IMG/VR virus record: IMGVR_UViG_3300040811_001208
Location: 1-64,000 of that record
DNA: 64,000 nt
Strand: one strand, 5' to 3'
From: a virus
The notes under the pieces were generated by a model. The model was not told the DNA's origin and ran no database searches. It saw only the letters and a program-made list of their open reading frames with translations. This document shows, one piece after another, positions 26,333-35,925 of the stretch. The position numbers were made by a program, and so were the translations under genes. Each line of letters starts with the position of its first letter. The first letter of the stretch is position 1.

Positions 26333-26366
26333 TTTGGGACAAAATACAAGTAACAAAGTACAAAGT

Positions 26367-26849
26367 TCAATAGGTTACACACCGGAAGGCACGGACACAG
26401 CGGGTGTTCGTCTTAGTGCTGCCGCCCGCAGTGCCATAATTATAGTCAACGAAGCACGCAATCGTAGCATTAAACTCCGTAGAAGACCAATAAGTGGCGC
26501 CGGAGAAGGAGTCCCAGTTTGCTCTACAACAATATCCTGGGTTTTGGAGTTGTGTTACAGAAGGAACAAACCAGTCACTGGGATTAAACCCAGCAGAAAT
26601 CATTGCAGAACATAAGGTTGGCCAATCACAAACACAACACCTATCATCAACGAGTTCTGTTGTAGTTCCGTTCCAGGTAGCACTCACTTGAGTTGATGCA
26701 GGAGCAACAATCCAGGCAGTTCCTCCTGCCTTACAAATAATTGCACTTTTATCTGGTAGTACAGTTCCTACAGGACAAGATTTTATAAGTGAACTCAATG
26801 AATCTGGTGATGCTACCCACCAATCTGCTGGCCCAATCGTAATTCCCAT
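26367..26849 (-). CDS. C-type-lectin-like variable protein A (candidate DGR target)
   Basis: 160 residues. Like its paralogues at 32042 and 35422: N-terminus IGPxxWW, a core with Cys pairs, SDWFVPS.TQLQ, RANWDSFS, YWSSTEFNAT and the end CVRAFRCVTY. The C-terminal half has the Trp/Gly layout of C-type-lectin or formylglycine-enzyme-like folds used by DGR variable proteins. Between TGG TCT TCT and the final CVRAF block, codons differ from paralogues only at positions 1-2. Most different of the three: it has extra changes before the Trp. Presumably a displayed ligand-binding tip of a tail fibre. Confidence 0.75.
   Translation of the reverse strand: MGITIGPADWWVASPDSLSSLIKSCPVGTVLPDKSAIICKAGGTAWIVAPASTQVSATWNGTTTELVDDRCCVCDWPTLCSAMISAGFNPSDWFVPSVTQLQNPGYCCRANWDSFSGATYWSSTEFNATIACFVDYNYGTAGGSTKTNTRCVRAFRCVTY
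26394..26501 (-). repeat. variable region A (108 bp)
   Basis: Aligned with 32069-32176 and 35449-35556 without gaps. From the TAT-TGG block to the stop-side block the third codon bases are conserved, while positions 1 and 2 take all four bases. In this copy the last variable codons are AAC ... CGC ... GTC. Confidence 0.75.
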
Positions 26850-26873
26850 ATGTCTACTTAAAGTCTTTATAAA

Positions 26874-26881
26874 CTATTTAG
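26874..26881 (-). promoter_or_regulatory. late promoter-like CTAAATAG
   Basis: Minus-strand CTAAATAG, 25 bases before the ATG at 26849. The same motif lies before other virion genes here. Confidence 0.55.
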
Positions 26882-26882
26882 T

Positions 26883-27350
26883 CTAAACAAAGTTCATATT
26901 CACATTCACTCTACACTTATCGTCACTGCAGGTAGTGCTACAATGAAGTCTAGAACCATCAAATAATAACAAACGATTTCTAATGGACTCCACTTCTATC
27001 GTATCTTCTAAAATCGTAAGACCATTATTGGTATTCAAGTAATAAATCGCACCAATGTTTTCATAGTCGTAATCAATATGATTACTATGTTTCTCTACTT
27101 TTTCTGTAGAAGGATATAGATTTGCTTTGATTCTTATAATCTTCGATGGACTTAACCTCTCCAATAAGACATCAAAAATCTCATAAGATTCAAACAAGTG
27201 AGTAAAATAATAAGAAGAAGTAATCTTTAAGTTCTCCTGAAGATTGGACACATTAGGTGTCAGGTTCCAGGAGAACTCACTGTTTAAGATTGAGTTTTTA
27301 ATCTTTAGAAACTCATCTTCTTCCAAAAAGTCATCAAAAATCTCAAACAT
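26883..27350 (-). CDS. 2OG-Fe(II) oxygenase-like protein
   Basis: 155 residues from MFEIFDDFLEEDEF. HSNHIDYDYENIGAIYYLN gives the HxD pair, LLLFDGSRLHCS the distal His, and CRVNVNMNF the 2-oxoglutarate-binding Arg; double-strand beta-helix fold of prolyl-4-hydroxylase type. Substrate could be a protein or sugar. Last gene of the modification cassette before variable gene A. Start chosen at the ATG near the upstream stop. Confidence 0.75.
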   Translation of the reverse strand: MFEIFDDFLEEDEFLKIKNSILNSEFSWNLTPNVSNLQENLKITSSYYFTHLFESYEIFDVLLERLSPSKIIRIKANLYPSTEKVEKHSNHIDYDYENIGAIYYLNTNNGLTILEDTIEVESIRNRLLLFDGSRLHCSTTCSDDKCRVNVNMNFV

Positions 27351-28326
27351 AACGACCAACTTTTGCGGATACCTCTTGTATCTTTTTTACTACGGCAGTT
27401 TCTTCTTTTTTTCCTTCAATACGACTGACGATTTCTTTATAGGCATTTTCCATTTCTTCATCAGTAAACATAATCCTTTCTTCATTGAGTCTTGTGGCAA
27501 GGGAACTATCCATACTACAAATTCTCATTGGAGCAGGATGAAACTCACAATCTCGTTCAATGATATGAAAATCTTCTGGGTATGAAACATTATTCTTATG
27601 AGTGCCAGCAATGAGAACTGATGCCCTCTGTCCTACTGCCTTTGCAAAGTGCTGACCACAAGTATCACAACCGATAAAGTAATCTGCTGTTTTGATGATA
27701 CCAATCCATTCTCTCATATTGGGGTCTGGTTGTGGTTTATATGAAACACCATCGTGGTATTCGTGTGCTCCCATATAAATCACATTATAAGACTTAGAGA
27801 GTTTATTTACTAAACTTTCATAAAACTTCTGTGGGAATGAACGAAATGATGGGTCAAATACTCCCATAGGACACTTATTTGCAGTGCTACCATAAGGTTG
27901 AATCACAATCGTCTTTTGCTTCTTTTGAAGTTCTTTGACTTCGTGGATGATTTGGTGTCCTTTGATTTCTTCGAACTGTGAAAGTTTAAAGTATTCTTTT
28001 GGTAGGTTCTCATAATCTTTAGAACCATTGATTTCCTGGTGAAATGCCTGAATCAGGTTGATTTCGCCACGATAATATTCTGGGAGACGGTAAGGTTCTG
28101 GTGTAATGACTCTATCGGCATCCCAGAAATACTTTTCAAAAGTTCCTTTGGTTTCTGGGTTGAATGTTCTACCTTGTAGTTGTGGAAGTCCCCAGGAAAG
28201 AAAATCCCAACCGTGAATCATTACATAAAACTCTTCATCTTTATGTTTCTCTGCAAAGTATAGAAGTGCAGGAAGTGCAGTCATTGCTCTTCCAATACCA
28301 CCATCAATCGTAATAACTGTTTTCAT
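27343..28326 (-). CDS. GT9-like (heptosyltransferase-type) glycosyltransferase
   Basis: 327 residues. N-terminus MKTVITIDGGIGRAMTALPA resembles the GT-B acceptor lobe of GT9 enzymes (GxGD.l...PAL); the second lobe has IVIQPYGST, VIYMGAHEYHDG and FIGCDTCGQHFAKAVG, the latter matching the GT9 'DTG..H.AAA.G' nucleotide-sugar loop. Likely transfers a sugar to a surface glycan or a virion protein. Overlaps the next glycosyltransferase by 4 bases. Confidence 0.75.
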   Translation of the reverse strand: MKTVITIDGGIGRAMTALPALLYFAEKHKDEEFYVMIHGWDFLSWGLPQLQGRTFNPETKGTFEKYFWDADRVITPEPYRLPEYYRGEINLIQAFHQEINGSKDYENLPKEYFKLSQFEEIKGHQIIHEVKELQKKQKTIVIQPYGSTANKCPMGVFDPSFRSFPQKFYESLVNKLSKSYNVIYMGAHEYHDGVSYKPQPDPNMREWIGIIKTADYFIGCDTCGQHFAKAVGQRASVLIAGTHKNNVSYPEDFHIIERDCEFHPAPMRICSMDSSLATRLNEERIMFTDEEMENAYKEIVSRIEGKKEETAVVKKIQEVSAKVGRYV

Positions 28327-29135
28327 TTGTATAGCATCCTTTGTTTATCAATCTTTGTATAGTGCTTCCACCAATATCTCCAATCTATGTATGGGTCTTC
28401 TTCAAGGCGTCCTTGTAGATGTAAAGTCAGCGATGAAATAGGATTGATTCGCATTACATCAGTTTCCCATATCTTGCAAATGGTGTTTCCTTCGTGTATT
28501 GTATCATTCTTATCGCCAGTTCCATCCCATTCTTGGTATTGAGTTGCAAGTGTTTCAAATAAGTTCCAATAAGTTCTAAAAATCATTGGAGAAGTCATAA
28601 AACTATAAGTTGTAAACCATCCTGTTCTCCAATGACGATATTTACCTCTCATTATCAGTTCTGGTGATAGATGCTTTGCCTCATAATCTTCTGGTGAATC
28701 CCATAAGAATAAACATAACTGTTTTTCTATAGGATACTTTTGTTGTAAGAATATAAACTCATCCAGTGCTTCTTTCAGTGCAGTGGGACAATGTAAGTAA
28801 TCATCTTCTATAGAATACACCAAATCTACATTACTATCTCTACATAACTCAAACTGTTTGAGTGCAGTATAGTGATGTCCTGTTCCATCTAACTTCACAA
28901 ACTCATAAGAATGTTTGGACTGTTTGAATAATGAATGCAACTGATTTAATGTTTCTTGTGATGAGTTGTCATCTAATACCTTAAAATGAATCGTATGAGA
29001 TAGCACCTGATTTGAGGCATTCACCAATGATGTAACACAACCTAAAAGTAACTCTGCTTTGGACACTGAAATGAACCGTGGAAACTTTGATACATTACCA
29101 CGGTCACAGGTTCTTAGGATAATCTCCAATCTCAT
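28323..29135 (-). CDS. GT-A family glycosyltransferase
   Basis: 270 residues. LEIILRTCDRGN at the start, FKVLDDNSSQETL and VYSIEDDYLHCP give the nucleotide-sugar and DxD-type metal site (EDDY, about 111-114) of GT2-like enzymes. Trp/Tyr-rich C-terminus. Part of a five-gene cassette of sugar, sulfate and hydroxyl transfer. Confidence 0.75.
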   Translation of the reverse strand: MRLEIILRTCDRGNVSKFPRFISVSKAELLLGCVTSLVNASNQVLSHTIHFKVLDDNSSQETLNQLHSLFKQSKHSYEFVKLDGTGHHYTALKQFELCRDSNVDLVYSIEDDYLHCPTALKEALDEFIFLQQKYPIEKQLCLFLWDSPEDYEAKHLSPELIMRGKYRHWRTGWFTTYSFMTSPMIFRTYWNLFETLATQYQEWDGTGDKNDTIHEGNTICKIWETDVMRINPISSLTLHLQGRLEEDPYIDWRYWWKHYTKIDKQRMLYK

Positions 29136-29950
29136 CGGTATTGTTGTTGTGGAACTGCAATAAGTCCTTGTGATTGATTATAAGGTTTCCAAAACTCCAT
29201 TCTCATTTGTTGATACTTCTGTTTGATTTCTTCTGGGATATAATACTTACAATCTTCATAATAGACAACTGGTTTAATCTTATGGAGATTTGGAACACCA
29301 GATTTTAGGTCAAACTTTGGATTCTCATAATCCAGTTGGTTGAAATCGTGTTTATAATAATCTTTTCCAATGAACTCATAAATATCCTTCATTGTCTTTT
29401 CTGGGAACTTACAGAGTGATCCATACTCAACAAAGTGTATCATCTCTGGGTTCTTTGCCATTCCTTCTTTTAATGAAGTATAATGTGGAATGATGGAACG
29501 ATTATAAATCTCATCACTTCGCTCAAAGATATTCTGGGAATATGTGAAATCATTGATTTGTTTATAATATAATGGATTATGAGTCCATAACTTTTCAAAT
29601 GAATTGATAATCTCATCAATGTTTCTTACACAACACAAGACCTTTGTAGTTGGGAAAACTTGTTTAAGTAATGAAGTATTACGAGTCCAACTCCTTGAGG
29701 TATCAAAGATTGTGGATTGTGATTGTTGAGAATAATAACCTTCAAATAAACTTTGAATAGTATTGATGCGTCTTTCTTCATTGATGTTGGGACTATTCTC
29801 ACATTCACTTAATACTCTTATGGTGTCTTCTACAATCATCGATAGTGGAGAAGACACATCTGCATAAAAATCTGGGTTTTGTCTTAATATCGAAGACAAA
29901 AGAGTAGACCCAGACCTAGGGAGTCCGCTGATAAAAAAATAGTTTTTCAT
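29132..29950 (-). CDS. sulfotransferase
   Basis: 272 residues. SGLPRSGSTLLSSIL (8-22) is the 5'-phosphosulfate-binding loop; VLCCVRNIDEIINSF (about 103-117) the 3'-phosphate-binding motif with Arg and Ser. Uses PAPS to sulfate a hydroxyl group. In this cassette the acceptor may be a glycan, or a Tyr on a fibre. Overlaps the glycosyltransferase gene by 4 bases. Confidence 0.85.
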   Translation of the reverse strand: MKNYFFISGLPRSGSTLLSSILRQNPDFYADVSSPLSMIVEDTIRVLSECENSPNINEERRINTIQSLFEGYYSQQSQSTIFDTSRSWTRNTSLLKQVFPTTKVLCCVRNIDEIINSFEKLWTHNPLYYKQINDFTYSQNIFERSDEIYNRSIIPHYTSLKEGMAKNPEMIHFVEYGSLCKFPEKTMKDIYEFIGKDYYKHDFNQLDYENPKFDLKSGVPNLHKIKPVVYYEDCKYYIPEEIKQKYQQMRMEFWKPYNQSQGLIAVPQQQYR

Positions 29951-29951
29951 T

Positions 29952-30551
29952 TCAATTTTGTTGACTTGGAAGAACCATTAGATTGAATGAAATAGAAATC
30001 CGCTCATCATCGTGGTGGTTGGTTTCTACTGAATGTGGGATGTATGATGGGAAAAGAAGAATAGAACCTTCTTCTGGTTCAATCCGCATCATTTCTCCGG
30101 TAAACTGGTTCTTTTCTTTGACAAGTTGGCAACCACCCCAGAGACGATTGAGACCTGGATTGGAAAGAACAAGTTTACCACTTTCTGGTGGTGCCTTAAG
30201 ATAGAAAACACCTGATAGAATCTCTCCGTGAACGTGTTCACTATTCATACATTCCCTGGAGTCATTGAAGTTGACCCAGGCGTGAGTGAGAAAGATATTA
30301 TTTTCAATGAAGTTCAGGTCTTGTACTGCCTGAATCGCCATCTCACAAACATATTGGAAGAGAGGTCGAAGTTCTGCTTCGCCTTGTAGTGTAAATGGTG
30401 ACTGATAACCAGCGATATTTGATTTATGTTCTCCTTGTGGATTCTTTTCTTTGAAGTTTCTTACGCAGGAAAGGAAAGAATCCTTATGTTGTTCAAAGTC
30501 AGGGTAAACCGACATCCATACTGGAGTGGAAAAGATTGGTAGTAGTTCCAT
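29952..30551 (-). CDS. 2OG-Fe(II) oxygenase (phage TIGR02466 type)
   Basis: 199 residues. LLPIFSTPVW at the start, SEHVHGEILSGVFYLKAP, LLFPSYIPHSVE and ERISISFNL match the family PF13759/TIGR02466 common in cyanophages. Metal ligands are in EHVHGE and the distal His in PHSV, with Arg for 2-oxoglutarate. Probably hydroxylates a protein or small molecule. A CATAAATA late promoter lies 42 bases upstream. Confidence 0.85.
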   Translation of the reverse strand: MELLPIFSTPVWMSVYPDFEQHKDSFLSCVRNFKEKNPQGEHKSNIAGYQSPFTLQGEAELRPLFQYVCEMAIQAVQDLNFIENNIFLTHAWVNFNDSRECMNSEHVHGEILSGVFYLKAPPESGKLVLSNPGLNRLWGGCQLVKEKNQFTGEMMRIEPEEGSILLFPSYIPHSVETNHHDDERISISFNLMVLPSQQN

Positions 30552-30592
30552 AGTGTATTTCAGGTTTGTTGTTTATTCTATGTCATTAAGGG

Positions 30593-30600
30593 TATTTATG
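30593..30600 (-). promoter_or_regulatory. late promoter-like CATAAATA
   Basis: Minus-strand CATAAATA in the 107-base gap between the TnpB gene and the oxygenase gene; it would drive the modification cassette late. Confidence 0.55.
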
Positions 30601-30658
30601 CAAGACTTGTCTCTAGAGTAAACTTGTAGTCTCGTGGAAAGTTTTTTACGATATTGAA

Positions 30659-31843
30659 CTACCGCGATGCTAAAGACATCGCGGATTCCTTCTTCACCGG
30701 AGTTTGCCTACAAGTAGGTCTTACATCTCCTCCAAAGGCAGTAACGCTAGTTCCTAACGCCATTAAATTCTTTGCTGCGTTTATATCTCTATCGTGAGTA
30801 GTTCCACAAGCATCACAAGTCCATTCTCTTATGTTTAATGGAAGTGAAGACTGGATAGTACCACAAGAACTACAAGTCTTGCTTGAAGGATAGAACCTGT
30901 CAACTTGTATTAGTTCTCTTCCATACATAGTTGCTTTGTATTTTAGAAAAGTCAAGAACTGGTACCATCCTTGTTGAGATATTGCGCGAGCAAGTTTTCT
31001 ATTCTTTACCATACCGGAAACATTTAAATCCTCAAGAACAATAACTTGGTTTTCGTTAATGATTCTTGTAGACAACTTATGTTGGAAATCTTCCCGGATG
31101 TTGACAATCTTTTCTTGCTGTCTTGCGACTTTTATTCTTGCTTTATTTTTGTTTTTAGAACCATTTTTCTTTTTAGAATGTTTCTTTTGTAGTTTCTTTA
31201 GTTTATTATAATGAGGTTTCAAGTCAGGCATCTTGACTTTTTCGCCAGTAGATAATGTAGCAAAGGTTTCAATGCCCAAGTCTATTCCAAGAACTTTGTC
31301 GCAAAGTGGTAAGGTGTAGTTATTTGGGTCGTCAACCAAAATAGAAATAAACCACTTTCCAGAAGAAGTTAAAGAAATAGTAATAGAACTAATGTCTTCA
31401 CTTGGTAGTTGTCTACTCCAACGAATGTTTAACTTTTTCTTGGATTTCGCAATAAAGATTTCTCCATTTTTGTAAGAGAAACCTGCTTTGGTTAAGGTAA
31501 TAGAGTTTCTATTACTCTTCTTCTTAAATCTAGGGAAACCAACTTTCTGGTTCTTCTTCAATCCCCTAAAGAAGTTATTGTATGCTTCTTGGAGGTTTTG
31601 AAGAGATTGTTGAAGAGCAACAGAAGAAACCTCATTCAACCAACTAGTTTCTTCTTCTTTCTTGAGGTTAGTTAAAAGGGAAGAAGTTTCACTATAAGAA
31701 ACCGACTTTTGATTTGTAGTCCATTCCTTAATGCGTAAAGCAAGAAAGTGGTTATAGACAAACCTGCTACAACCCATAGTCTTCCGCAGAAGAACTTCTT
31801 GGGATGGAGAAGGATAAAATCTATAACGAAATGCTCTATACAT
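30659..31843 (-). CDS. tnpB: TnpB, RNA-guided nuclease, apparently intact
   Basis: 394 residues. MYRAFRYRFYPSPSQEVLLR, RuvC-I GIDLGIETFA (D188), RuvC-II VLEDLNVSGM (E271), zinc ribbon CSSCG/CDACG (C324, C327, C343, C346) and RuvC-III DRDINAAKN (D353), then GTSVTAFGGDVRP. All catalytic and zinc residues are present, unlike the TnpB at 8450. The 3' end overlaps a strong hairpin, as expected for the right-end guide RNA. A CTAAATA motif lies about 30 bases before the ATG. Confidence 0.92.
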   Translation of the reverse strand: MYRAFRYRFYPSPSQEVLLRKTMGCSRFVYNHFLALRIKEWTTNQKSVSYSETSSLLTNLKKEEETSWLNEVSSVALQQSLQNLQEAYNNFFRGLKKNQKVGFPRFKKKSNRNSITLTKAGFSYKNGEIFIAKSKKKLNIRWSRQLPSEDISSITISLTSSGKWFISILVDDPNNYTLPLCDKVLGIDLGIETFATLSTGEKVKMPDLKPHYNKLKKLQKKHSKKKNGSKNKNKARIKVARQQEKIVNIREDFQHKLSTRIINENQVIVLEDLNVSGMVKNRKLARAISQQGWYQFLTFLKYKATMYGRELIQVDRFYPSSKTCSSCGTIQSSLPLNIREWTCDACGTTHDRDINAAKNLMALGTSVTAFGGDVRPTCRQTPVKKESAMSLASR

Positions 31844-31873
31844 TCTTATGTGGAATGCGATTGACTACATAAG

Positions 31874-31880
31874 TATTTAG
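31874..31880 (-). promoter_or_regulatory. late promoter-like CTAAATA before tnpB
   Basis: Minus-strand CTAAATA about 30 bases before the tnpB start; same form as the virion-gene promoters. Confidence 0.4.
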
Positions 31881-32041
31881 TAAAGTTTGTTCCTTACATC
31901 CGCGAAACAAAAGACTTTGCGGTTTTACGGAACGCAGATAAAAACTCTTTTAATCAGTTCACTCACATCTCTATAGATTTTCAGTTCTTCTACCATATTA
32001 AAAAAATCCGTTTACAAAGTACAAGTAACAAAGTACAAAGG

Positions 32042-32512
32042 TCAATAAGTCACACACCGGAAGGCACGGAAACAGAAGGTGCCCGCCTTACCGCTGGTGC
32101 TCGCAGAGCCATTAGTATAGCGAACGAAGCACGCACACGTAGCATTAACCTCCGTAGAAGACCAATAGTTGGTGGCGGAGAAGGAGTCCCAGTTGGTTCT
32201 ACAAACATATCCTGGGTTTTGGAGTTGTGATACTGAAGGAACAAACCAGTCTCCTGGATTAAAACCACAATTAATCAGTTGAGTTTCTAGTCCACTCCAC
32301 TCATAAACACAACACTTATCACCAACTTCTGTTGAGTTATATTGTCCTCCTGCCCATTGAGAACCTACTTGAGTGCAAGATGGTGCCACGATCCAGGCAG
32401 TTCCTCCTTCCTTACAGATGATTGTGGAACCATCAGGAAGATAAGTTCCTTCTGGGCACGCTGAAACTAGATTTGCTTGCCACCAAGGTGTTGGTCCAAT
32501 AATTAATCCCAT
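32042..32512 (-). CDS. C-type-lectin-like variable protein B (candidate DGR target)
   Basis: 156 residues; MGLIIGPTPWWQANLVSACP, then VAPSCTQVGSQWAGGQYNST, GDWFVPSVSQLQ and RTNWDSFSATNYWSSTEVN, ending CFRAFRCVTY. Outside the variable part it is very close to protein C (35422). Within the variable part (32069-32176) it differs from both paralogues almost only at first and second codon bases. Directly downstream of the 725-residue fibre gene, so it is probably the fibre's tip or adhesin. Confidence 0.78.
   Translation of the reverse strand: MGLIIGPTPWWQANLVSACPEGTYLPDGSTIICKEGGTAWIVAPSCTQVGSQWAGGQYNSTEVGDKCCVYEWSGLETQLINCGFNPGDWFVPSVSQLQNPGYVCRTNWDSFSATNYWSSTEVNATCACFVRYTNGSASTSGKAGTFCFRAFRCVTY
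32069..32176 (-). repeat. variable region B (108 bp)
   Basis: Same segment as variable regions A and C. Example columns (A/B/C): GAC/CGC/AAC, CGC/TTC/TAC, ACT/TCT/AGT, ACT/GGT/AAT. Confidence 0.75.
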
Positions 32513-32531
32513 ATTCTTTACCGTTTTTTAT

Positions 32532-32539
32532 CTATTTAG
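32532..32539 (-). promoter_or_regulatory. late promoter-like CTAAATAG
   Basis: Minus-strand CTAAATAG, 20 bases before the variable gene B start, just before the fibre gene's stop in coordinate order. Confidence 0.55.
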
Positions 32540-32541
32540 TT

Positions 32542-34719
32542 CTAAGAAAGTGTAACAATACCTGTTCTAATAACCCCATCAGTTCCTTTGACTCTTATGG
32601 TTAATGTAGTATTATTAGTAAGTTCAAAACTCATTGTTGAATTATTTGTTGGACTTGATGTGCTCCCAAGACCAACAGTGGTTATTCCAGTTATATTTGC
32701 ATTACCACGAACATCTAATGTTGATGTTGGAACTGATGTTCCTACTCCAACATTGCCTGATGGAGAAACTTCAAATGCAGTTTCTATGGTTCTGGTTCCC
32801 GTTGCATTAGTGGAAAGACCAGTAAATCTATTGATTCTAAAAAGACTGCTGTTGTCATTAACAACAGTTACAAGTTGTCCACCATTTAGTGGTTGGTCTA
32901 GTTCACCTTGGAATAATATAGAACCTCTTGTTGGGGCATAAGTGCTGACTCCAGGAGTGATTGGTTCTATATTGACTGACGTAGAAGATTGTCTATTGAA
33001 GTCTAATTGTTCACTAAAAGTAATTCTATCACGGATTAGAACATTTCCAGTTGCATTTGTATTACTTCTAATATGAAAATCACTTTCTGGATTTGTGATT
33101 CCAATACCAACTCTACCACTTTGTGTTACATCAATTGCCGGAACTGAACTACCACTAAAATACTTATAACCACCAACACTGAATATATTTCCTGTTGGGT
33201 CATTGGTTATTGCAAATAGTGATGCCGGGAATAAAGAAACACCATCAGTAGAAATACCAGCAGGACTATCAAAACTGATTGCTCCACCTGCAAAAGTAAC
33301 GGTTTCTATGCCAACCTGATACTCAAAGTTATTATAATGGTTAATATCAATCTGTTCTGTTGCGGTAGAACCAGCAGAAGTGACCCTTAGGTTTCCATTT
33401 ACTTGTAACTTTGCTTGCGGATTCGTCGTTCCAATACCAGCATTACCTGATGCACTTGCCTCAAAGATTGGTTTGCGGTTTAGGTCATTGACTCTAAAGA
33501 TACTACTTGAAAGATTGTTTGAAATACTAAAGATTTGAGTTCCTCTATCAGTTTGGGCAGTCCCCACTGGAGCTTCAAAACTTAGAGCACCCTTATCACT
33601 AAACTTTGGAACAATACTGACATATTCTGTTGTTGTAGAGAATGGTGCTCTTACACTCAGTCTTCCATAAAGTTCATTATAAACAGAACTATTGGCAGTA
33701 GTGATTGATGTGCCAACTCTTAGAGCACCATAAGTTGTGACAATACCAAGAGGACTTACACTGAATAGATTACGATTTTCAAATGAAGCAATTGAAAGAT
33801 TGTCATAGTTTGCATAACGATAAACCGAGAATGCACTTTCACTTTGATTATTAGAAACAGAGAATAACTGGTTTCCTCCGTAGTTTGCGATTTCTAATAA
33901 ACCATTATCCCTAGAAACCGCAGAGATTTCCATTTTTTCTGTTGATGCTGCACCAACAGAAGAACCAATCGTAACTTTTGGATTAAATGCACCAGAAGCA
34001 GAAACAACAAAGTCGGTTCCAATATCAAGTGCTTGTGAGCCTGATGCTTGTTGTATTGTGAGTTTTGAGTTTGCTGATGCTTTTGTGGTTCCAATACCAA
34101 CATTTTTAGAAAGAACTACATTACCTGTATCATAAACAGCAAAAGCAGAAGTTCCATCATTATCATTAATAACATAAAGTTCTCCAGATTCTGCTGGTTC
34201 TGTTGTGACACTGAAGAGATGGTCTGTATTGATTCCACTTTGAAATACCAAAGAACCACCATTTGATTCATAGTGTTTCGCAGTGATTTGAGTGGTTGAT
34301 GCTGCACCAGTGACAAGAAAGTTGACAAGTGGTGTTTTCAATATTGGAGTATCTATAGAACTTTCTACAGAAACTTGCCGTATTGTTGTAACTCCACTAT
34401 TAGATACTGATAATAAAGGGAGTGCATCACTATCACTAATGACATAAACCAAATCTGGATTCCCAGAATCTGGTTCATTTGTGATTGAAAATATTAGATT
34501 ATCTGTGGTTGGTTCAAAATCTTCTTTTCGATATACTAAAGAACCACCATTACTTGTGGTGTGAAGTGCAACAATATTATCGCCAATAGTTGACCCAACA
34601 GAGGTGATTTTTACATCTCCGGTTATGTCAAGAGTTGTCGTTGGATTTGTGGTTCCAATGCCAATCTTACTATCCTTCAGTACAAAATCTTTGCCAAATC
34701 TAACTCTGTTCTTAGGCAT
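32542..34719 (-). CDS. tail fibre protein (725 aa)
   Basis: N-terminus MPKNRVRFGKDFVLKDSKIG is the same virion-attachment leader as in the 288-residue fibre at 35950. At least five 'GIGTTxPxxxLxVxG' segments are spaced along the chain (KIGIGTTNPTTTLDITG, NAGIGTTNPQAKLQVNG, NVGVGTSVPTSTLDVRG), typical of cyanophage fibres. Between them are repeats with LFSV/FSISN phrases. Beta-rich trimeric shaft expected. Followed directly by variable gene B. Confidence 0.8.
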   Translation of the reverse strand: MPKNRVRFGKDFVLKDSKIGIGTTNPTTTLDITGDVKITSVGSTIGDNIVALHTTSNGGSLVYRKEDFEPTTDNLIFSITNEPDSGNPDLVYVISDSDALPLLSVSNSGVTTIRQVSVESSIDTPILKTPLVNFLVTGAASTTQITAKHYESNGGSLVFQSGINTDHLFSVTTEPAESGELYVINDNDGTSAFAVYDTGNVVLSKNVGIGTTKASANSKLTIQQASGSQALDIGTDFVVSASGAFNPKVTIGSSVGAASTEKMEISAVSRDNGLLEIANYGGNQLFSVSNNQSESAFSVYRYANYDNLSIASFENRNLFSVSPLGIVTTYGALRVGTSITTANSSVYNELYGRLSVRAPFSTTTEYVSIVPKFSDKGALSFEAPVGTAQTDRGTQIFSISNNLSSSIFRVNDLNRKPIFEASASGNAGIGTTNPQAKLQVNGNLRVTSAGSTATEQIDINHYNNFEYQVGIETVTFAGGAISFDSPAGISTDGVSLFPASLFAITNDPTGNIFSVGGYKYFSGSSVPAIDVTQSGRVGIGITNPESDFHIRSNTNATGNVLIRDRITFSEQLDFNRQSSTSVNIEPITPGVSTYAPTRGSILFQGELDQPLNGGQLVTVVNDNSSLFRINRFTGLSTNATGTRTIETAFEVSPSGNVGVGTSVPTSTLDVRGNANITGITTVGLGSTSSPTNNSTMSFELTNNTTLTIRVKGTDGVIRTGIVTLS

Positions 34720-34746
34720 TGCTATTGTTATACACTTCCTTTTTTA

Positions 34747-34753
34747 TATTTAG
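34747..34753 (-). promoter_or_regulatory. late promoter-like CTAAATA
   Basis: Minus-strand CTAAATATAA, 28 bases before the fibre ATG at 34719. Confidence 0.5.
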
Positions 34754-34766
34754 GTTTAATTCCAAC

Positions 34767-35354
34767 CTAAATGAGATTGATAAAATCTTGTGGTAGATGG
34801 TGAGATATAGCTTGTTTTTTGATGTAGTTAATGGTGGTCTTTGTTACCTTCATCTTTGTTTTAATAAGATTCCAACACGCCTGGAAATCTGCATAGTTTC
34901 CTTTTTCGCATTCCAAGAATGTTGTTGGGAAAGAAAGTGCTGCTATTGGAATCACTGCTATGGAGTTAGCAATAATGGTATTCAGTGGCTCATAAGAAAG
35001 GAACTTTTCCTTGAATGCTCCCCATTCTGGAGTTGGTTGTGGTTCTGGTGGGGTAGTTTCTTTATTTAATATTGTTTCTGCTTCGTCGGTTTTGTTTTTT
35101 ATGATGAAGTTTCTATGAGTTTCACTCCACTCCCAGTATTCTGTTTCTGGGTCAAAGTCACCTTCGATTACATTTCCTTCTTCATCGGTATGAGTTCCCA
35201 CTGGCATTTCATATGGGCCAGTAAAGCCAAATGCGATTAACTCTTCGTGGGATAGTTCTGGTAGGTCAGTTCTTATGACTTTATCTGCACCTCTATAATA
35301 AGATGGAACTTCTTGTGGAAATGTTCCGTTTGGTGGACTGTAAAGTGGTTTCAT
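34767..35354 (-). CDS. tail-fibre-assembly-like protein (195 aa)
   Basis: MKPLYSPPNGTFPQEVPSYY, TDLPELSHEELIAFGFTGPY and a C-terminal unit (PEWGAFKEKFLS to LPQDFINLI). Same two-part design as the 312-residue protein at 25017 but with a single C-terminal unit. Lies between variable gene C and the 725-residue fibre gene, so fibre folding or adhesin attachment is a reasonable guess. Confidence 0.6.
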   Translation of the reverse strand: MKPLYSPPNGTFPQEVPSYYRGADKVIRTDLPELSHEELIAFGFTGPYEMPVGTHTDEEGNVIEGDFDPETEYWEWSETHRNFIIKNKTDEAETILNKETTPPEPQPTPEWGAFKEKFLSYEPLNTIIANSIAVIPIAALSFPTTFLECEKGNYADFQACWNLIKTKMKVTKTTINYIKKQAISHHLPQDFINLI

Positions 35355-35421
35355 AGTTCTTATGGGGGTTTATTAGTGAAGAAAAATCCGTTTACAAAAT
35401 ACAAGGTACAAAGTACAAAGT

Positions 35422-35925
35422 TCAATAAGTCACACACCGGAAGGCACGGACACAGTAGGTGCCCGACTTATTGGTGCTGAACGCACTGCCATTAGTATAG
35501 TTAACGAGGCACGCACCCGTAGCATTAAACTCCGTAGAAGACCAATAGTAGGTGGCGGAGAAGGAGTCCCAGTTTGCTCGACATTGATATCCCAGTTGAA
35601 GTTGGGACAATGAGGGAACAAACCAATCACTTGGTGTAAATCCTGCATTTGTTAATGCTGTTTGTAATCCACTCCATTCACTAACACAGCACTTATTGCC
35701 AACTGCCGTTGAGTTATATTGTCCTCCTGCCCATTGAGAACCTACTTGTGTACAAGATGGTGCAACAAGAATCGCAACACCATTAGTGGCACACATAATC
35801 GTAGAACCATCAGTTAAAGTTCCGCCAAGACCATCACTATTCAAGGTTGCCTTTACCTTACAGTTGATTAATGCATCTGGGCTATCTTTCCACCACCAGT
35901 TTGTTGGGCCGACATATACTGTCAT
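35422..35925 (-). CDS. C-type-lectin-like variable protein C (candidate DGR target)
   Basis: 167 residues. MTVYVGPTNWWWKDSPDALI, then CTQVGSQWAGGQYNSTAVGN, SDWFVPSLSQLQ, RANWDSFSATYYWSSTEFN and the end CVRAFRCVTY. Differs from protein B by a short insertion near the N-terminus. Directly downstream of the 288-residue fibre gene, repeating the fibre-then-lectin order seen for gene B. Confidence 0.78.
   Translation of the reverse strand: MTVYVGPTNWWWKDSPDALINCKVKATLNSDGLGGTLTDGSTIMCATNGVAILVAPSCTQVGSQWAGGQYNSTAVGNKCCVSEWSGLQTALTNAGFTPSDWFVPSLSQLQLGYQCRANWDSFSATYYWSSTEFNATGACLVNYTNGSAFSTNKSGTYCVRAFRCVTY
35449..35556 (-). repeat. variable region C (108 bp)
   Basis: Third copy of the variable segment. 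The block on its stop side (CGT GCC TTC CGG TGT GTG ACT TAT TGA) is identical to copy B and nearly so in A, a candidate for the conserved DGR priming site (IMH). Confidence 0.75.

Follow-up and report, generated by a model that had tools for sequence, protein, structure and literature searches.

Most descriptions of diversity-generating retroelements (DGRs) concern complete cassettes, and the present locus raises the question of whether three variable phage genes can be DGR targets when no reverse transcriptase (RT) accompanies them and, if so, what became of the cassette. The genes, which we call A, B, and C, lie within positions 1–64,000 of record IMGVR_UViG_3300040811_001208; this 64,000-nucleotide stretch is the window, and the whole record, a genome fragment, is 71,954 bp long. 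The phage is a cyanomyovirus relative, as its baseplate-region protein matches those of Synechococcus and Prochlorococcus phages (best identity 39–46%). The original prediction took all three genes as candidate DGR targets. That part is strongly supported by the comparisons below; what the record holds is an orphaned target set next to a destroyed avd-template repeat (TR)-RT cassette rather than a demonstrably working DGR. With a probability of roughly 0.87, we conclude that the three genes encode the variable proteins of a DGR native to this cyanophage, whose cassette was destroyed at this locus while the targets were kept.

Open reading frames (ORFs) are present where the prediction had placed them, all on the minus strand: A at 26367..26849 (160 aa), B at 32042..32512 (156 aa), and C at 35422..35925 (167 aa). 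The three were aligned codon by codon, counting back from the stop. As had been claimed, 15 codons vary between TGG TCT TCT ACG GAG and CGT GCC TTC CGG, and in these codons bases 1 and 2 alone vary, with no third-base change. Over the 37 codons of the variable repeat (VR), the three pairs differ at codon positions 1/2/3 by 9/8/0, 9/7/0, and 12/7/0. Upstream of the VRs in the same genes, the corresponding differences are 42/30/52, 27/20/41, and 29/23/35 over 92–97 codons. Third bases there differ at 52/97, 41/94, and 35/92 codons per pair (38–54%; pooled, 128 of 283 pairwise codons), and the third-base rate in the VR differs from that upstream with Fisher P from 2e-10 to 1e-6. The homogenised segment starts at about codon -51 (AAC TGG GAC TCC TTC TCC) and ends at CGG; its 5′ part contains one third-base change, at codon -43 (ACT/AAC/TAC). 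On the 3′ side, the first third-base changes fall two to three codons past CGG, just after the TR and VR of an intact relative cease to be identical. The anchor blocks of the VR occur three times in the whole window, all in A, B, and C.

Relatives drawn from IMG/VR, all of them metagenome contigs, several of which break off within a VR or TR, supply the system that the window lacks. One of them, G002 (IMGVR_UViG_3300032294_003113, locus L003), has the gene order variable protein-variable protein-avd-TR-RT-2OG, where 2OG is a 2-oxoglutarate-Fe(II) oxygenase gene, with a third target further on; this is the same order as at the window locus. Its Avd scores 63 bits with the Pfam bAvd model (cut-off 40) and 59.6 bits, below the cut-off of 80, with NCBIfam DivGenRetAVD (E 3e-16), and its RT carries the motifs IGNLTSQ and YLDD. 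All 50 of the 50 mismatches between the TR and the three VRs of G002 fall on TR adenines. When the variable columns of A, B, and C are aligned to this TR, 25 of 28 stand on adenines (Fisher P = 3e-13). The VRs of the window align to it at 26382..26510 (A, 129 nt), 32057..32185 (B), and 35437..35565 (C), all on the minus strand. They also carry 14 fixed differences from the G002 TR at non-adenine positions, which shows that they were written from a TR of their own that is now missing. Other intact cassettes are found in G014, G023, G024, G026, and G017, the last on a contig that begins within its TR, and mismatches fall on TR adenines in 17/20 (G014), 22/24 (G023), 18/19 (G026), and 11/11 (G017) cases. 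The predicted stop-side block, a candidate initiation of mutagenic homing (IMH) site, corresponds to a conserved, IMH-like 3′ anchor: in G002 the anchor CGTGCCTTCCGG stands where TR/VR identity ends, followed by T in the VR and A in the TR, and the same switch occurs in G023 and G026.

The predicted lectin-like fold with a C-terminal variable segment also agrees with what we observe. Sequence matches of the target proteins to the Lcl C-terminal domain are weak (Lcl_C E 5e-5 for A and 2e-5 for C, both under the curated cut-off). An AlphaFold2 model of C, with a predicted local distance difference test (pLDDT) score of 88, has as its best PDB match that same domain of Legionella Lcl (8q4e, E 1e-6) and also matches the Bacteroides ovatus pilin 4eps (E 6e-3). 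These belong to the same fold family as the targets but are bacterial proteins from other contexts. Lectin-fold DGR targets are an already known kind. Thus, the syntenic complete DGR with adenine-only mismatches, the coincidence of the variable columns with its TR adenines, and the Lcl/lectin-like model together give strong grounds for regarding the three genes as DGR targets. Their products are probably located at, or close to, the tips of the tail fibres and attach to the host surface, judging by the fold, by neighbouring genes that look fibre-like, and by what comparable proteins are known to do.

The original prediction also stated that the window holds no RT or template, and we found none there or in the rest of the record: there is no RVT_1 match across the 71,954 bp, no TR-like copy other than the three VRs in the window and its continuation, and neither TR nor RT in the record's final 8 kb. 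An Rfam search likewise gave no match. The prediction had treated such an absence as counting against a DGR, yet it is explained by the visible destruction of the cassette, whose remains lie in the slot that separates B from the 2OG gene; this is the reason no RT was seen. What the search for RT, avd, and TR did recover is a split, truncated avd remnant; this remnant, the insertion within it, and the repeat arrays described below had all been missed. The 5′ piece of avd (31938..31996, minus strand; MVEELKIYRDVSELIKRVFI) ends at TTTAT. There an IS200/IS605-type TnpB element (30654..31937, minus strand) is inserted, with inferred ends CTGCG... and ...TTCAA and no target duplication; the ends come from the rejoining of the avd flanks around this single copy. 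On its other side avd continues for a short distance (30608..30653, minus strand; IVKNFPRDYKFTLET), past which the rest of avd, the TR, and the RT are gone. The right edge of the deletion is the 2OG leader (30552..30607, minus strand; CTTGCATAAATACC...), which G004 shares, and beyond it is the 2OG-Fe(II) oxygenase gene itself (29952..30551, minus strand; PF13759, E 7e-22), a syntenic landmark that follows the RT in intact relatives.

Without the TnpB element, the avd flanks rejoin in frame (RVFI|IVKNFPR, MVEELKIYRDVSELIKRVFIIVKNFPRDYKFTLET), and the joined ORF of 38 aa is 71–79% identical to five Avd sequences of the family. The bAvd hidden Markov model independently matches the second avd piece (30599–30679, E 0.001). 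The residues SLA followed by a stop, which come after the avd remnant, were considered as the tail of the RT; this reading was rejected, since in G004 that stretch of DNA (CTTGCATAAATACC) forms the leader of 2OG and a similar sequence stands directly after a target gene in G010. The tnpB gene (30659..31843, minus strand) encodes a 394-aa RNA-guided nuclease that scores 366 bits with NF040570 guided_TnpB (cut-off 100) and also matches PF07282 and PF01385; its catalytic-looking motifs appear intact by eye. No tnpA was recognised among the listed ORFs near the element, and tnpB-only elements do exist. In a search for a second copy to fix its ends, the nearest phage copies had about 49% protein identity and one Microcoleus relative 46%, which left the ends unsettled. 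The element resembles those of the ISDra2 type in having a TnpB with OrfB and Cas12f-like TNB domains and in its insertion 3′ of a short motif without duplication; it differs in that no TnpA was seen and in its inferred motif, TTTAT versus TTGAT.

Lesions in the same slot are not confined to the window. In G001 (L060 7741–8097), avd codons 1–61 are fused in frame to RT residues 285–343 as an open ORF of 125 aa; G005 retains an avd stub of 15 codons; G015, a 243-kb contig with no RT anywhere in it, has a frameshifted avd; and in G029, avd(1–42) is followed by 2OG. Different lesions in one slot in four relatives indicate that cassette loss is recurrent and that the targets persist. In G004 and G010, a target gene stands directly before 2OG. 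In a 2OG tree, the broken G015 pairs with the intact G014 (support 100/99) and the broken G029 groups with the intact G023, G024, and G026 (support 100/99). The tree has few rows and the window's own clade is unresolved on it, so the number of losses rests on the lesion types. Third-base differences between VRs of RT-less genomes with at least two targets number 0 of 37 codons in the window, 2 in G005, 3 in G001, 3–7 in G003, and 17–24 in G004 and G010. The larger numbers are as expected if overwriting stops; the zero in the window means either that the loss was recent or that diversification continues in trans. One to four distant target homologues are present in G018 (249,820 bp), G019, and G022, in which no RT or avd was found, and these are possibly older orphan target families. 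Contigs G006, G009, G010, G016, and G017 stop within a target VR or TR or right next to one, which would be expected if assembly fails at the repeated and variable VRs.

The history that we propose begins with an RT that, with Avd, would have copied one TR RNA into cDNA while misreading adenines, presumably by mutagenic retrohoming like that of Bordetella phage BPP-1. The cDNA would have been substituted for the 3′-terminal part of each of the lectin-like genes, and such overwriting would have equalised the non-adenine positions of A, B, and C while randomising those templated by adenine. Two later events, in either order, would have left A, B, and C as frozen variants: the insertion of a TnpB-bearing IS200/IS605-type element into avd, immediately past TTTAT, and a deletion reaching to the 2OG leader that removed the TR and the RT together with the 3′ part of avd. 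A history without a retroelement, in which gene conversion homogenised the copies and diversifying selection on amino acids split the 15 codons, has in its favour that multi-copy receptor-binding genes can convert and diversify. It gives no reason to expect variable columns at the TR adenines of another genome, a fixed third base at all 15 codons, or an avd remnant beside gene B; the adenine overlap and the syntenic intact DGR already contradict it, and we consider it very improbable.

The main rival is that the targets are still being diversified, either by a second RT and TR encoded in genome sequence outside the record or by Avd, TR, and RT supplied in trans by a co-infecting DGR-positive relative. 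Several points weigh against our reading. The 72-kb record belongs to a genome of probably >170 kb, so a second RT and TR may lie elsewhere; VRs without third-base decay, as fresh as those of the window appear, are also expected from an active DGR; and our account of the insertion depends on TnpB ends taken from one copy. Besides the fresh VRs, the rival has in its favour that the anchor blocks TATTGGTCTTCTACGGAG and CGTGCCTTCCGG are identical across several related phages and that BPP-1 lacking avd-TR-RT can be rescued in trans by a plasmid (PMC3240598). Against it, no RT is found in either the record or G015 with its broken avd, the only close TR found, that of G002, is not the template given its fixed differences, and the exact VR/TR block of the window type has no match in IMG/VR or GTDB contigs. 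We regard continued diversification as a serious but rather unlikely alternative, and cassette destruction with diversification having stopped, probably recently, as the better account. Less likely still is that TnpB drove the loss, with a guide copying the right flank so that DNA with intact avd is cut at TTTAT, the element spreads by repair, and the flanking deletion is a by-product. The insertion lies precisely in avd after a T-rich motif, without target duplication and with a joining that restores the frame, and ISDra2 provides a precedent, as its insertion 3′ of a fixed motif and the cleavage of the empty site by its TnpB have been shown and intron-like homing has been proposed (PMC8612924). 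Nevertheless, a single copy underlies both the inferred motif and the inferred guide, the guide region differs in related phages, and the four other lesions of the family lack TnpB, so that such a drive is possible but unnecessary.

Directly 3′ of each target stop codon in the window is an array of four heptamers, NNYTTGW, on the minus strand (26339..26366 after A, 32014..32041 after B, and 35394..35421 after C; period-7 P 0.001 for the last). Within the window this pattern is confined to these three stops, and none of 100 shuffles produced it. No BPP-1-type GC-rich hairpin or cruciform follows the window VRs, where no stem exceeds chance, and no such hairpin was found in the intact relatives G002, G014, G023, and G026. 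Across the family, most targets have a heptamer array 3′ of them, whether their system is intact or orphaned. Their presence tracks VR freshness imperfectly, as the first variable protein of G002 and G017 have fresh VRs yet only one to two heptamers. A wider sample comprised 32 non-redundant flanks (among L162–L244) from DGRs that were located by way of the RTs of Aeromonas and Bacteroides phages; these flanks were thinned by similarity only, come in many cases from one RT clade, and are not fully independent. In them the 7-bp periodicity that follows the VR reaches z 13 relative to dinucleotide shuffles and z 12.4 relative to random windows taken from those loci, compared with z 2.3 after the TR as a control. 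Successive T[CT]TG motifs stand 7 apart 23 times in this sample versus 0.26 expected per random set, and most of these flanks also carry the known hairpin, 3′ of the repeats. A literature search for DGRs with a heptamer-type repeat found no paper, which is weak evidence of novelty. We see about even odds that the array is an undescribed, general DGR target-site element that stands in for the hairpin in the cyanophage family and elsewhere mostly separates the VR from the hairpin; recognition by Avd, by the RT, or by a host protein might let it mark the site of cDNA integration.

BPP-1 (mtd, avd, TR, brt) shares with this family the target-avd-TR-RT order, the C-terminal VR, adenine-only mutagenesis, the conserved 3′ anchor, and a C-type-lectin-like target. 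It differs in having one target and a GC-rich 8-bp hairpin after the VR, which we recovered in the present analysis, whereas the cyanophage family has several targets and the 7-bp repeat array in place of such a hairpin. RT-less DGR fragments have been noted before, in Nanoarchaeota, where adenine-biased VRs without an RT, like those here, were read as fossils or as remotely diversified (PMC4372165). The cause of the missing RT was unknown for those fragments, whereas here an avd remnant, an insertion, and several different lesions are visible.

Between the targets, at 26883–30551 of the window, is a gene cluster that includes the 2OG-Fe oxygenase and a sulfotransferase; two further genes in it, which have no Pfam match, we labelled glycosyltransferase-like. 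In relatives (L003 4146–5843), a NodU-type carbamoyltransferase is added. The cluster perhaps modifies a surface glycan or the fibre.

As far as the literature was searched, two things are new: T4-like cyanophages have lost the cassette repeatedly, in a way that can still be read, while retaining the targets, with a TnpB insertion in avd involved in one of the losses; and their target sites lack a hairpin and are flanked by heptamers. The family catches DGRs in the course of repeated loss and, since the lesions can be read in one syntenic slot with the targets kept, makes it possible to study directly what hypermutation costs and what becomes of variants once they are frozen. Surveys centred on the RT would overlook such orphaned targets. 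The heptamer array, if functional, would be a second cis element in DGR target recognition and could be tested in the BPP-1 system.

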